A stretch of 64,000 nt of DNA from NCBI GenBank assembly GCA_903865435.1, contig CAIPJS010000076.1, forward strand, positions 21,180 to 85,179, given 5' to 3'. Made by a program: the position numbers and the translations under genes. Every line of letters starts with the position of its first letter. Position 1 is the stretch's first letter. Shown here one piece after another: positions 52,126 through 57,446 of this stretch. The notes beneath the pieces were generated by a model. The model did no database searches, was not told where the DNA came from, and saw only the letters and a program-made list of their open reading frames with translations. Source of the DNA: an uncultured Bacteroidota bacterium (GTDB lineage: Bacteria; Bacteroidota; Bacteroidia; Chitinophagales; Chitinophagaceae).

Positions 52126-53448
52126 ATGAAAAATTTCATTCTAGTAGCCTTGTGCTTTTTTTTTATCAATGCAAAAGCGCAAACCTACATTCCTTCTAAA
52201 GAAAATATAAAAGCCAGAACTGCTTTTCAGGACAATAAGTTTGGTATGTTTATCCATTGGGGAGATTTTAGTGTACTTGGAGATGGCGAATGGGTGATGG
52301 AAAATAAAGGCATCAATAAAACAGATTATACAAAACTGATTAAATTATTTAATCCAGTAAATTTTGATGCGGCTAAATGGGTAAGCACTGCTAAGAATGC
52401 AGGCATGAAATACATTGTACTTATTACAAGACATCATGATGGATTTTCAAATTGGGATACCAAACAATCTGCTTGGAAAATTACCAATACTTCATTCAAA
52501 AGAGATCCATTGAAAGAGTTGGCAGCAGAATGTAAAAAGCAAGGCATCAAGCTTGGTTTCTATTATTCCTTATTGGATTGGAATAGAGAAGACTATCCTT
52601 ATGAAACAGGTAAAACAGGGAAAAAAGCTGGAAGAACTACGAAAAGTAATTATGATTCCTATTTAAAATTTATGAAGGGCCAATTAACGGAATTGCTTAC
52701 CAATTATGGAGATATTTCCTGTATTTGGTTTGATGGACATTGGGACCAAACCAATCCTGAAGGATCCAAAGACAGAACCTCTCGTTTGAATTGGAAATAT
52801 GATGAAATTTATAGTCTAATACATAAGTTACAACCTGCTTGTATGATTGGAAACAATCATCATCTAGATCCTATTACCGGCGAAGACTTTCAAATGTTTG
52901 AACAAGACTTACCTGGGCAAAACAATTCAGGATTAAGTTTTCAAACAGCCTCTGAATTGCCTTTGGAGTCTTGTATTACTATGAATGATTCATGGGGGTT
53001 CAAAATCAATGACCATAATTTTAAATCCTTTAATAATATCATTCAAACCTTGGTGGGTGCGGCGGGACGCAATTCTAATTTATTATTAAATGTAGGGCCC
53101 ATGGCCAATGGAGAAATACAAGAAGAATTTAGAGATACGCTAGCCTTAGTAGGTAAATGGGTTAAAAAATATGGAGCTAGTATTTATGGTACAAGAGGGG
53201 GCCCTTTGGCGCCACAAAATTGGGGCGTGACCACGCAAGATGCGAAGCATGTTTATGTGCATATTTTAGCACCACGAAATACTTCTGGTTTATTTATCCC
53301 TGGTAAAATAAAGGCAACTAAAGTAAATTTAATGGGAACGACTACATCCTTGCCTTTTATAGTAAAAAATAATGGTATATTAATTGATACGCATGGGTTA
53401 AATATAACAGGTCCAGATACCATTATTGAAATACAAAAAGCACTTTAG
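52126..53448 (+). CDS. Alpha-L-fucosidase (GH29)
   Basis: KFGMFIHWGDFSVLGDGEWV; YIVLITRHHDGFSNWDT; ISCIWFDGHWD nucleophile region. Confidence 0.93.
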   Translation: MKNFILVALCFFFINAKAQTYIPSKENIKARTAFQDNKFGMFIHWGDFSVLGDGEWVMENKGINKTDYTKLIKLFNPVNFDAAKWVSTAKNAGMKYIVLITRHHDGFSNWDTKQSAWKITNTSFKRDPLKELAAECKKQGIKLGFYYSLLDWNREDYPYETGKTGKKAGRTTKSNYDSYLKFMKGQLTELLTNYGDISCIWFDGHWDQTNPEGSKDRTSRLNWKYDEIYSLIHKLQPACMIGNNHHLDPITGEDFQMFEQDLPGQNNSGLSFQTASELPLESCITMNDSWGFKINDHNFKSFNNIIQTLVGAAGRNSNLLLNVGPMANGEIQEEFRDTLALVGKWVKKYGASIYGTRGGPLAPQNWGVTTQDAKHVYVHILAPRNTSGLFIPGKIKATKVNLMGTTTSLPFIVKNNGILIDTHGLNITGPDTIIEIQKAL

Positions 53449-53484
53449 TACTTTCCAATAGCTTCATTATCAATGTTTCTCCTA

Positions 53485-53553
53485 GGTAACAATTTAGTAA
53501 CATGAGAGGTAACAATTTGGTAACATGAGAGGTAACAATTTGGTAACTTTTAA
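53485..53553. repeat. Three tandem 23-bp repeats GGTAACAATTTGGTAACATGAGA (six GTAAC half-sites)
   Basis: Copies begin at 53485, 53508, 53531; GTAAC at 53486, 53497, 53509, 53520, 53532, 53543. Confidence 0.95.
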
Positions 53554-53607
53554 ATAGCCTTTAACAATTCATTATGTTCTTCTTTTGTGGTTCAAATTAA
53601 GAAACAA

Positions 53608-56600
53608 ATGAAAAAAGTACTATTAAGTATTATCCTAGGTTTAAGTTTAGTGAGTGTTTTTGCTCAAGAAACTTCTTCAACTTTAAGTGGACGTGTTACC
53701 AATGAAAAAAATGAAATTGTTGCCGGCGCAACCATCAAATTAACGCACGTTCCAACGGGCGCAACAACTACTTTTCAATCCAATGCAAAAGGATTGTTTG
53801 TAGCACCTAACTTAAAACCAGGTGGTCCTTATGTTATTAAAATCAGCTCTGTTGGTTTTAAAGACCAGGATTACAATGATGTTACTTTAACATTGGGAAA
53901 CAATCCTGATGTGAATATCATCTTGTCTTCAAAAGTGAATCAACTTTCTGATGTTGTCGTAAACAGCAACAGCAAAAAAAGAGCAGAGGGTGGTACTGTA
54001 ATTGGCGCAAGACAATTAAACGCTTTACCTACTCTAGGTAGAAGCTTAAGTGATTTCACAAGATTAACTCCACAGTCTAATAACAACTCATTTGCAGGTT
54101 CTAGCTTCCGTTACAATAACCTAACTATTGACGGTGCAATCAACAATGATGCATTTGGATTTAGTAACTCAGCTGGTGGAACAAGTGGCGGTGGTCAATC
54201 TGGCGCAGCAGGTTCTGGAACAAGAACAAACCCATATAGCTTGGATGTGATTCAAGAAGTTCAAGTGCAATTAGCACCATTTGATGTTAAATTAGGAAAT
54301 TTCACAGGTGGTAGCGTAAATGCGGTAACTAAGAGCGGTACCAATGAGTTTCATGGTAGTGTTTATAACTATGCCCGTAATGCGAGCTTAGTAGGTAATA
54401 GTGTGGATGGTTTAAAAACCCCAATGGCTTCTAGTTTTTATGACTATAACCAAGGTGTTACAATTAGTGGTCCAATTTTAAAGAACAAAGCGTTCTTTAT
54501 CGTAAACTATGAAAGAACAGATCGTCAAGAACCAAGTTCTTACAATATTGGTGATCCAGGTGCTGCAATTACTTTAGCTGAAGCACAATCTATTGTAACT
54601 AAGTTACAAACTAAGTATGGCTACGATCCAGGTAGTTATATGGGTGCATATACTATTTTTACAAAAAGTGATAAATTATTTGGTCGCTTAGATTTCAACA
54701 TCAATGATAAAAACACATTGACAGTTCGTGGTATTTATACTAATGGAAGTGGTAATAACTTAGAGCGTTCTGCTACTAACTTCCAATTTGGTTCAACTGA
54801 CTTTACACAATACACAAAGAATATTAACTTAACTGCAGAATTAAAAACGAAGTTCAGCAATAGCGTTAACAATCAATTTAATGTAAGTTATATTAATGTT
54901 CATGAATACAGAGATTTCCCTGGAACTTTAGCTCCTTATATGGATATTGATAACGGTCGTATTACTTTAGGTACTTGGAGAGAAGCTTCTATCTATAACT
55001 TAAAGCAAACCACTTTTGAATTATCTGACAACTTAACTATTACAAAAGGCATTAATAAATTCACATTAGGTACGCATAATGAATTCTATGATTTATCTTA
55101 TGGATTCATTAACTCATACAATGGTCGTTGGGAATATTCAAGAGGTTTAACTAGCTTCTTGAATGACAACCCTAGCCGTATTCGTGGAGCGTTTATCACT
55201 GCTCCAGGTTTAGATGGAACAAGAAATGGTATTTATAATAATCCGCCTAATCCGTTTAAAGTTGCCTTAATGAGTGCATATTTCCAAGACGAAATATCTG
55301 CAAGCAGCAAATTTAAAGTGAGCCCTGGTATTCGTTTTGACTACTCATATGTAGGTAATCAACCTGTTATTGATGCTGGCTTAAATGGCACTAATGCAGT
55401 AGGATACGTTTCTGCAAAACCTACTTATAGCGCTCCAGCATTTAGTACTTTAACTGATCAAATTCCTTCTCGCGTTTCAATTTCTCCTCGTTTAGGATTT
55501 ACTTATGATGTGAAAGGCGACCAATCTATTGTGATTAGAGGCGGTACGGGTATCTTTACTGGTAAGGTTCCATTTGCATGGTACGGATACGCTTACACTT
55601 TAAGTGGTAACACTTATGGTAATATTGACTGGAATGGTCCAGCAGCAGGAGCAACTGTTCCATTGGCTTTTAACACTGATAAATTAAAGGATACTGTTAC
55701 TAAATATGGCGGTGCTTCAAGAAGTGCAACCAGAGAAGTAGATGTATTTGACAATAACTTTAAATTACCAACTGTTTGGAGAAGTAGTTTAGCGGTTGAT
55801 TACAAATTTGGTAATGGCTACAAATTCACTGGTGACGTTTTATTTACTAAAACAATCTATGATGTGAAGTACGAGCAAATCAACTTAAAAGATTCCGTTG
55901 CTTACTTTACTTCAGGACCTACTCAAACACCAGTATATGTGGGTGGTAAATACAATTCAAACTACTCTAACGTTTACTTTTTAACAAACACAAGTGAAGG
56001 TTATAGATATAACTTGACAGCACAATTGTCAAAAGCTACCAACAACATTTCAATGGGTAAAACTGTTGCAAATATGAACTGGAGTGTTGCTTATACTTAT
56101 GGTATGAGTAAGGATATCACAAATGGTATTCGTAACTCTTGGGAAAGTAGTTATAACGTAAACCCAACAATTACGCCAAGTAATTCTCAATTAGCTTATT
56201 CTAACTTTGATTTACGTCACAGAATTGTTGCTACTTTCTCAAATAATTTCATTTGGAATAAAATGAATTCAACTTCAGTTGCGTTTGTTTATTCTGGTCA
56301 ATCAGGCAATCCTTATAGTCTAATTTATCAATCAGCTCCATTTGGTAACGGATCTAATGCTCCATTACCTTATATTCCTAAAGATGCTACTGATATTATT
56401 TTTAGAGATATCAAAGATGCTGCTGGTAACGTAACATATACTGCTGCAAACCAATCTACAGATTTCTTTAATTTTGTAAATAACGATGATTATTTAAAAA
56501 CTAGAAAAGGACAATACGCGGAAAGAAACGGAATGCGTACACCATGGGTACACCAATTAGATATGAAATTAATGCATGAATTTAAGTTGAATAAAAATAA

Positions 56601-56883
56601 CCCTAAACAATCTTTACAGGTTAGCTTGGATGTATTCAACGTATTAAACTTAATTAATAATGATTGGGGTCACATCAACTTTGTAACTAACTTAAACAAT
56701 TACACAGTTAACTTCTTGAAATTTGCAACTGATGCAAATGGCAAAGCAGCTGGTGCACCTTCAACAGGGTATATTCCATCTTTCAACTTTGTTAAACCAA
56801 CAGGGGTAGGTGGTCAATATTACTCAGTAGATCCAATCAATTCAAGATGGCAAGGTCAATTGGGAATTAAGTTTAACTTCTAA
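53608..56883 (+). CDS. Oar-like TonB-dependent receptor with carboxypeptidase-regulatory domain
   Basis: Signal MKKVLLSIILGLSLVSVFAQ; STLSGRVTNEKNEIVAGATIKLTHVPTGATT; VKLGNFTGGSVNAVTKSGTNEFHGSVY; ORF track start is 53587. Confidence 0.92.
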   Translation: MKKVLLSIILGLSLVSVFAQETSSTLSGRVTNEKNEIVAGATIKLTHVPTGATTTFQSNAKGLFVAPNLKPGGPYVIKISSVGFKDQDYNDVTLTLGNNPDVNIILSSKVNQLSDVVVNSNSKKRAEGGTVIGARQLNALPTLGRSLSDFTRLTPQSNNNSFAGSSFRYNNLTIDGAINNDAFGFSNSAGGTSGGGQSGAAGSGTRTNPYSLDVIQEVQVQLAPFDVKLGNFTGGSVNAVTKSGTNEFHGSVYNYARNASLVGNSVDGLKTPMASSFYDYNQGVTISGPILKNKAFFIVNYERTDRQEPSSYNIGDPGAAITLAEAQSIVTKLQTKYGYDPGSYMGAYTIFTKSDKLFGRLDFNINDKNTLTVRGIYTNGSGNNLERSATNFQFGSTDFTQYTKNINLTAELKTKFSNSVNNQFNVSYINVHEYRDFPGTLAPYMDIDNGRITLGTWREASIYNLKQTTFELSDNLTITKGINKFTLGTHNEFYDLSYGFINSYNGRWEYSRGLTSFLNDNPSRIRGAFITAPGLDGTRNGIYNNPPNPFKVALMSAYFQDEISASSKFKVSPGIRFDYSYVGNQPVIDAGLNGTNAVGYVSAKPTYSAPAFSTLTDQIPSRVSISPRLGFTYDVKGDQSIVIRGGTGIFTGKVPFAWYGYAYTLSGNTYGNIDWNGPAAGATVPLAFNTDKLKDTVTKYGGASRSATREVDVFDNNFKLPTVWRSSLAVDYKFGNGYKFTGDVLFTKTIYDVKYEQINLKDSVAYFTSGPTQTPVYVGGKYNSNYSNVYFLTNTSEGYRYNLTAQLSKATNNISMGKTVANMNWSVAYTYGMSKDITNGIRNSWESSYNVNPTITPSNSQLAYSNFDLRHRIVATFSNNFIWNKMNSTSVAFVYSGQSGNPYSLIYQSAPFGNGSNAPLPYIPKDATDIIFRDIKDAAGNVTYTAANQSTDFFNFVNNDDYLKTRKGQYAERNGMRTPWVHQLDMKLMHEFKLNKNNPKQSLQVSLDVFNVLNLINNDWGHINFVTNLNNYTVNFLKFATDANGKAAGAPSTGYIPSFNFVKPTGVGGQYYSVDPINSRWQGQLGIKFNF

Positions 56884-57029: not shown

Positions 57030-57446
57030 CTAATTCATATACTCTCCTACAAACTTTTCGCAGTAATCTTTAATTAATCTTCTTACTGCTCTAAACTGCT
57101 CATTTATTTCATCTTCTGTACCAACCGCTTTGGCAGGATCTGGAAAATTATAATGTAATTTAACTGCCTTGGTAGGAAAATAAGGGCAGCGTTCTTTAGC
57201 ATTATCGCATACGGTAATCACGTAATCAAAAGCAACACCAAAGTATTCTGTGATATTATTTGAGGTATGGTCTCCAATATCAATACCTATTTCTTTCATT
57301 GTATCAATAGCCTTTGGGTTCACACCATGCGTTTCCACGCCTGCAGAATATACATTGGCTGTGTCCGAAGTCATAGATGCTAAAAACCCATGGGCTATTT
57401 GACTTCTGCAACTATTGCCTGTACATAAGACTAAAATATTTTTCAT
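57030..57446 (-). CDS. arsC: Arsenate reductase / LMW protein tyrosine phosphatase family
   Basis: VLCTGNSCRSQIAHGF P-loop; VCDNAKERCPYFP; DPAKAVG. Confidence 0.9.
   Translation of the reverse strand: MKNILVLCTGNSCRSQIAHGFLASMTSDTANVYSAGVETHGVNPKAIDTMKEIGIDIGDHTSNNITEYFGVAFDYVITVCDNAKERCPYFPTKAVKLHYNFPDPAKAVGTEDEINEQFRAVRRLIKDYCEKFVGEYMN

Follow-up and report, generated by a model that had tools for sequence, protein, structure and literature searches.

A probable Pho box array of 11-bp direct repeats upstream of an Oar-like TonB-dependent receptor in Chitinophagaceae

The Pho box of Escherichia coli has a period of 11 bp. The effector domains of PhoB bind its direct repeats in tandem (1GXP; PMC3348028), and the box overlaps the -35 region of the promoter (PMC3348028). 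Tandem direct repeats also make up the cyanobacterial Pho box bound by PhoB/SphR, where they share a conserved TTAA core and each is required for binding (PMC11126600), as well as the PHO box of PhoP in Streptomyces, which consists of 11-bp direct repeats (PMC9019756), and the GlnR box of S. venezuelae has the layout GTnAC-n6-GTnAC (PMC10704036). In Flavobacterium johnsoniae, phosphate depletion strongly induces several TonB receptors, including Fjoh_3841 with its PF13620 domain (PMC8115612). We found no Bacteroidota Pho box consensus or PhoB binding motif in the papers searchable through PubMed Central. Here we describe an array of GTAAC motifs in a 64,000-nucleotide stretch of DNA from an uncultured Chitinophagaceae bacterium (the window), which is very probably a Pho box through which a PhoB-type response regulator would activate an Oar-like receptor under phosphate limitation.

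The six GTAAC motifs start at positions 53486, 53497, 53509, 53520, 53532 and 53543, exactly where an earlier sequence-only reading had placed them. The near-perfect 23-bp repeats described in that reading are likewise borne out, as Tandem Repeats Finder reports 53484-53547 as a tandem repeat of period 23 (2.8 copies, 97% match, score 121), the top-scoring one in the window, with the refinements that unit 3 is incomplete, having GTAACAATTTGGTAAC and lacking ATGAGA, and that in unit 1 an A replaces a G (TTTAGTAAC). The half-sites form three pairs on the forward strand, i.e. GTAACAATTTAGTAAC at 53486..53501 and GTAACAATTTGGTAAC at both 53509..53524 and 53532..53547, and are spaced 11/12/11/12/11 bp apart, with 11 bp inside pairs and 12 bp between them. 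All three GTAAC-N6-GTAAC matches in the window fall within the array against 0.04 expected, which rules out chance; as many were reached in none of 100 shuffles. The suggestion that all six half-sites share one face of the DNA holds inside the pairs but not strictly for the ends of the array, because the end-to-end drift is ~154 degrees when computed at 10.5 bp per turn.

The array ends ~60 bp upstream of the receptor ATG at 53608 and lies in an intergenic gap of 159 bp whose other neighbour is an alpha-L-fucosidase gene ending at 53448. The -7 promoter element of Bacteroidota has the consensus TAnnTTTG, and a probable element of this type, TTCTTTTG, is located at 53580..53587 (+). The conserved core-promoter segment TTTAACAATTCATTA at 53560..53574 (+) is the probable -33 region and also resembles a half-site (TTAACAAT). 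The gene that follows (53608..56883, +) encodes an Oar-like TonB-dependent receptor of 1091 aa with a CarboxypepD_reg domain (PF13620) and an outer-membrane barrel (PF25183), for which a structure search found no match among solved structures. Directly downstream of the receptor is a low-molecular-weight phosphatase/arsenate-reductase-like gene (57030-57446, -), which adjoins the receptor in the relative L010 too; arsenate uses phosphate routes into cells.

To compare upstream regions, 49 loci of receptor relatives were taken from genome contigs, mostly of Chitinophagaceae or unclassified Bacteroidetes. In line with the regulatory role proposed from the window, the seven close relatives preserve pairs 1 and 3 at a separation of ~45 bp, along with the core promoter, while the remaining DNA of the gap diverges. 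Pair 1 keeps its position in all close relatives and pair 3 is near-invariant in the 8 aligned species (base 1 is G, and A in L010). Pair 2 is degenerate in six of the seven; in L010 it is consensus-like, as in the window, and there all six half-sites keep a strict 11-bp spacing and the linker differs. It is plausible that copy number tunes the receptor promoter, because the middle pair varies in this way.

The repeat reaches well beyond the close relatives. In the 40 distant orthologues whose upstream DNA spans 200 bp or more, 48 [GT]TAAC pairs stand at 11 bp, giving tandem direct repeats with the period of a Pho box, and a further 32, 15 and 7 stand at 22, 33 and 44 bp; every other spacing has 0-6 pairs, with none at 12 bp, and shuffles of the full set (n = 47) give ~0.2 per spacing. 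Upstream of the same 40 orthologues, GTAAC lies on the receptor's strand 79 times and on the other strand 6 times, and a de novo motif search on orthologue upstream DNA returned nnGGTAACATTTnGGTAACATT (27 bits). The distance from a half-site to a TAnnTTTG-like -7 element in the distant orthologues is 15, 26 or 37 bp (24, 22 and 21 cases, others being few), which amounts to a fixed helical phase of 15+11n bp relative to the core promoter. The last half-site of the array (pair 3) is 37 bp (15 + 2x11) from its -7 element and so keeps this phase, although the window and its close relatives, unlike the distant orthologues, have degenerate half-sites at the promoter-nearest positions (15 and 26 bp from -7), leaving the array apart from the -7 element. 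The 23-bp repeat is the local form of a conserved element made of KTAACATT direct repeats with an 11-bp period.

We searched the genome for GTAAC-N6-GTAAC, as the sequence-only reading had proposed. The bare pattern is not enriched by count, with 6 matches against 14 for a reversed control pattern. The only other exact copy of the 16-mer GTAACAATTTGGTAAC (G000:C20:96782) precedes a PhoU_div (DUF47) gene together with a PHO4-family phosphate permease (DUF47-PiT). Allowing three mismatches returned 48 real and 93 control matches; sites with a low match therefore did not count by themselves and were kept only with the support of a motif model of 39 positions spanning the repeat and the -7 element. 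At E < 0.35 this model picks out 10 sites in the 2.33 Mb genome. Three belong to the array and one to the DUF47-PiT phosphate transporter on C20; the others precede an acetyltransferase and a GDPD (phosphodiesterase)/alkaline phosphatase gene (C2:22436), a phosphonate operon with TIGR03364, PhnZ-like TIGR03276 and PhnX-like TIGR03351 (C2:28409, the last two matches being slightly under cut-off), a second TonB receptor (C29:2418) and a PhoB-like regulator with a PhoR/PnpS-like kinase (C95:65076), while C52:59312 and C29:10458 have no clear target assignment. As a negative control, the TonB receptor promoters of the genome carry the motif in 2 of 18 cases. The sequence-only reading had named a repeat unconserved in relatives and without any other genomic occurrence as grounds for giving up its proposal; we find the repeat both conserved and recurring.

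The two sites on C2 fall in a phosphorus-acquisition island (G000:C2:17500-38000; L128, L166) that holds a SusCD pair, a tyrosine-phosphatase-like protein, the GDPD/alkaline phosphatase, a purple-acid-phosphatase-like protein and a phosphoesterase, and whose phosphonate-degradation operon includes a DUF5690 membrane protein, probably a transporter. The best model match of the genome (G000:C52:59312-59347; L130, L133) precedes a 104-aa protein that matches no Pfam family and may be a previously unrecognised member of the phosphate response. A porin O/P gene is absent from this genome, and its PBP_like_2 protein, which resembles a lower-scoring orphan type, has no motif upstream.

In 61 Chitinophagaceae genomes the extended (exact) motif has 7 matches, against 0 for the control. 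Its targets are three Oar-like receptors, two porin operons, a DUF47-PiT operon and one locus without a clear target; one of the porin operons includes pstS, and at the other pstS lies ~1.5 kb downstream by position. The motif model yields 16 sites at E <= 0.001 in the same genomes, before four Oar-like receptors, two porin-pstS operons, six further TonB receptors (two being divergent from DUF47-PiT), a metallophosphoesterase paired with a glycosyltransferase, similar to lipid-remodelling genes, and, in three cases, genes without a clear phosphorus role. Strong model matches at L178 (G016:C1:1186684) and L179 (G006:C88:13398) precede an ECF-sigma/FecR-like pair and a large secreted protein. 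The element is found before the porin-pstS operon for 7 of the 11 best PstS-type proteins, compared with 1-2 of 19 lower-scoring PBP_like_2 proteins that share their Pfam domain. Taking this genome and its relatives together, sites are located before PiT, pstS, alkaline phosphatase and phosphonate genes, and none of the own-genome or family sites examined led to a recognised nitrogen-assimilation gene. The same DNA signal marks phosphate genes across Chitinophagaceae, a large family of environmental Bacteroidota.

At 30 DUF47-PiT operons, motifs with a score of at least 8 lie upstream in the operon direction in 3 cases and divergently in 16, with none in downstream controls, and the divergent ones point to porins or TonB receptors wherever the gene could be identified. 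At L170, L171, L175, L176 and L180 the DUF47 gene and the gene of an outer-membrane receptor or porin run divergently from a common gap that holds Pho boxes, a recurring pairing of inner and outer membrane in Chitinophagaceae.

The genome contains a single PhoB-like regulator (G000:C95:64352-65029), which with its adjoining kinase is the likely regulator of the array. PhoB is the best match of the regulator and PnpS/PhoR that of the kinase, both under the curated cut-offs (208 bits against 296 for the PhoB-like protein with TIGR02154). Among the five OmpR-family regulators of the genome, a good upstream motif in the sense direction is present only at this one, and its orthologues carry an upstream site scoring at least 8 in 8 of 30 cases (own included), typically TTAACAATTnnATAAT, against 0 of 30 downstream control stretches; the element is missing before some phoB genes and some DUF47-PiT operons. 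Neighbours of the receptor orthologues, identified independently of the motif, include DUF47-PiT at 12 loci, a PhoB orthologue at 7 and a porin at 4, and the PhoB orthologue and PiT are at most 30 kb apart in 13 of 41 genomes. Among solved DNA-binding domains the nearest are 8hig and 8hml, which belong to another OmpR-family regulator and not to PhoB. Comparison of the recognition region, RTIDVHIRKIRAKLG in the PhoB-like protein and RTVDVHVRRLRAKLG in 8hig, reveals a region common to both. We take 8hig to be GlnR. A GTAAC-type half-site for the regulator is supported by this similarity, since the layout of the GlnR box is also that of the array.

These likenesses, along with family-level HMM scores under cut-off and the GTnAC-n6-GTnAC layout of Actinomycetes GlnR boxes (PMC10704036), could also mean that some other OmpR/PhoB-family regulator, answering another signal, occupies the array, with phosphate genes only part of its regulon. 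We consider this unlikely, as the sites precede genes for phosphate, phosphonates and phosphatases and not nitrogen genes, the PhoB-like gene is alone among the five OmpR-family regulators in having a good sense-direction motif upstream, and its orthologues cluster with the receptor and PiT.

Two further explanations have very little probability. A functionless 23-bp duplication by slippage could explain why repeat number or quality changes, with a consensus-like middle unit in the window and in L010 and a degenerate one in six others, yet it would hardly preserve the outer pairs and their spacing amid diverging flanks, the 11-bp repeats are common to distant orthologues, and simple copying leaves the different linker of L010 unexplained; in its simple form it is refuted by the conservation of the half-sites. 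Equally improbable is that the array serves a general DNA-binding protein such as a nucleoid-associated one, an idea the sequence-only reading had entertained and which the AT-rich repeat and near-helical spacing might recommend, because the motif is gene-specific: the 10 sites in 2.33 Mb are few, are promoter-phased in relatives and mark a functional set that includes only 2 of the 18 TonB receptors. The other idea of that reading, cooperative binding of a regulator at the receptor promoter, is supported by both the conservation and the regulon content, which point to the PhoB-type class as the likely one.

On the Pho box reading, a PhoB-type regulator phosphorylated when phosphate is scarce would cooperatively occupy the 11-bp half-sites, head to tail, and would recruit RNA polymerase to the -7 element just downstream, so that the Oar-like receptor is switched on and takes up phosphate or some substrate containing phosphorus. 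The sequences themselves establish the motif, how it is conserved, how it is phased to the promoter in relatives, which genes it precedes, that a PhoB-like regulator is present and that the genes cluster. We infer that the regulator binds and activates, that low phosphate is the inducing condition, and what the receptor carries. A wider proposal, to which we give an even chance, is that a family-wide Bacteroidota phosphate regulon has its own Pho box, a repeated (K)TAACATT-N3, and that Oar-like receptors are the main outer-membrane entry of phosphorus feeding PiT; the setting would be streamlined lake bacteria without a porin O/P gene or a recognisable high-affinity pst operon, and the cargo phosphate or small phosphorus compounds.

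On this interpretation an unexplained repeat becomes a readable signal that allows the Chitinophagaceae phosphate regulon to be listed from sequence, and the large family of 'orphan' Oar-like receptors acquires a proposed function, phosphorus uptake, that can be put to the test, in a phylum that is abundant in lakes and soils and whose response to phosphate depletion includes TonB receptors (PMC8115612). How the number of Pho boxes sets promoter output could be examined through the natural variation of the middle pair.

Set beside the described systems, the array shares direct repeats with the E. coli Pho box, but its half-site is KTAACATT rather than TGTCA, its core promoter has a Bacteroidota -7 element and the boxes of the window lie further upstream. 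The cyanobacterial Pho box comes from a different phylum, and here GTAAC is the commonest core with up to six half-sites; the Streptomyces PhoP half-site, GTTCACC, again differs from KTAACATT. The layout GTnAC-n6-GTnAC of the GlnR box is present in the array, whereas the targets of GlnR are nitrogen genes, of which none was recognised at the sites examined here. Fjoh_3841 resembles the receptor of the window in its PF13620 domain, and the term "Pho box" does not appear in the report of its induction (PMC8115612).
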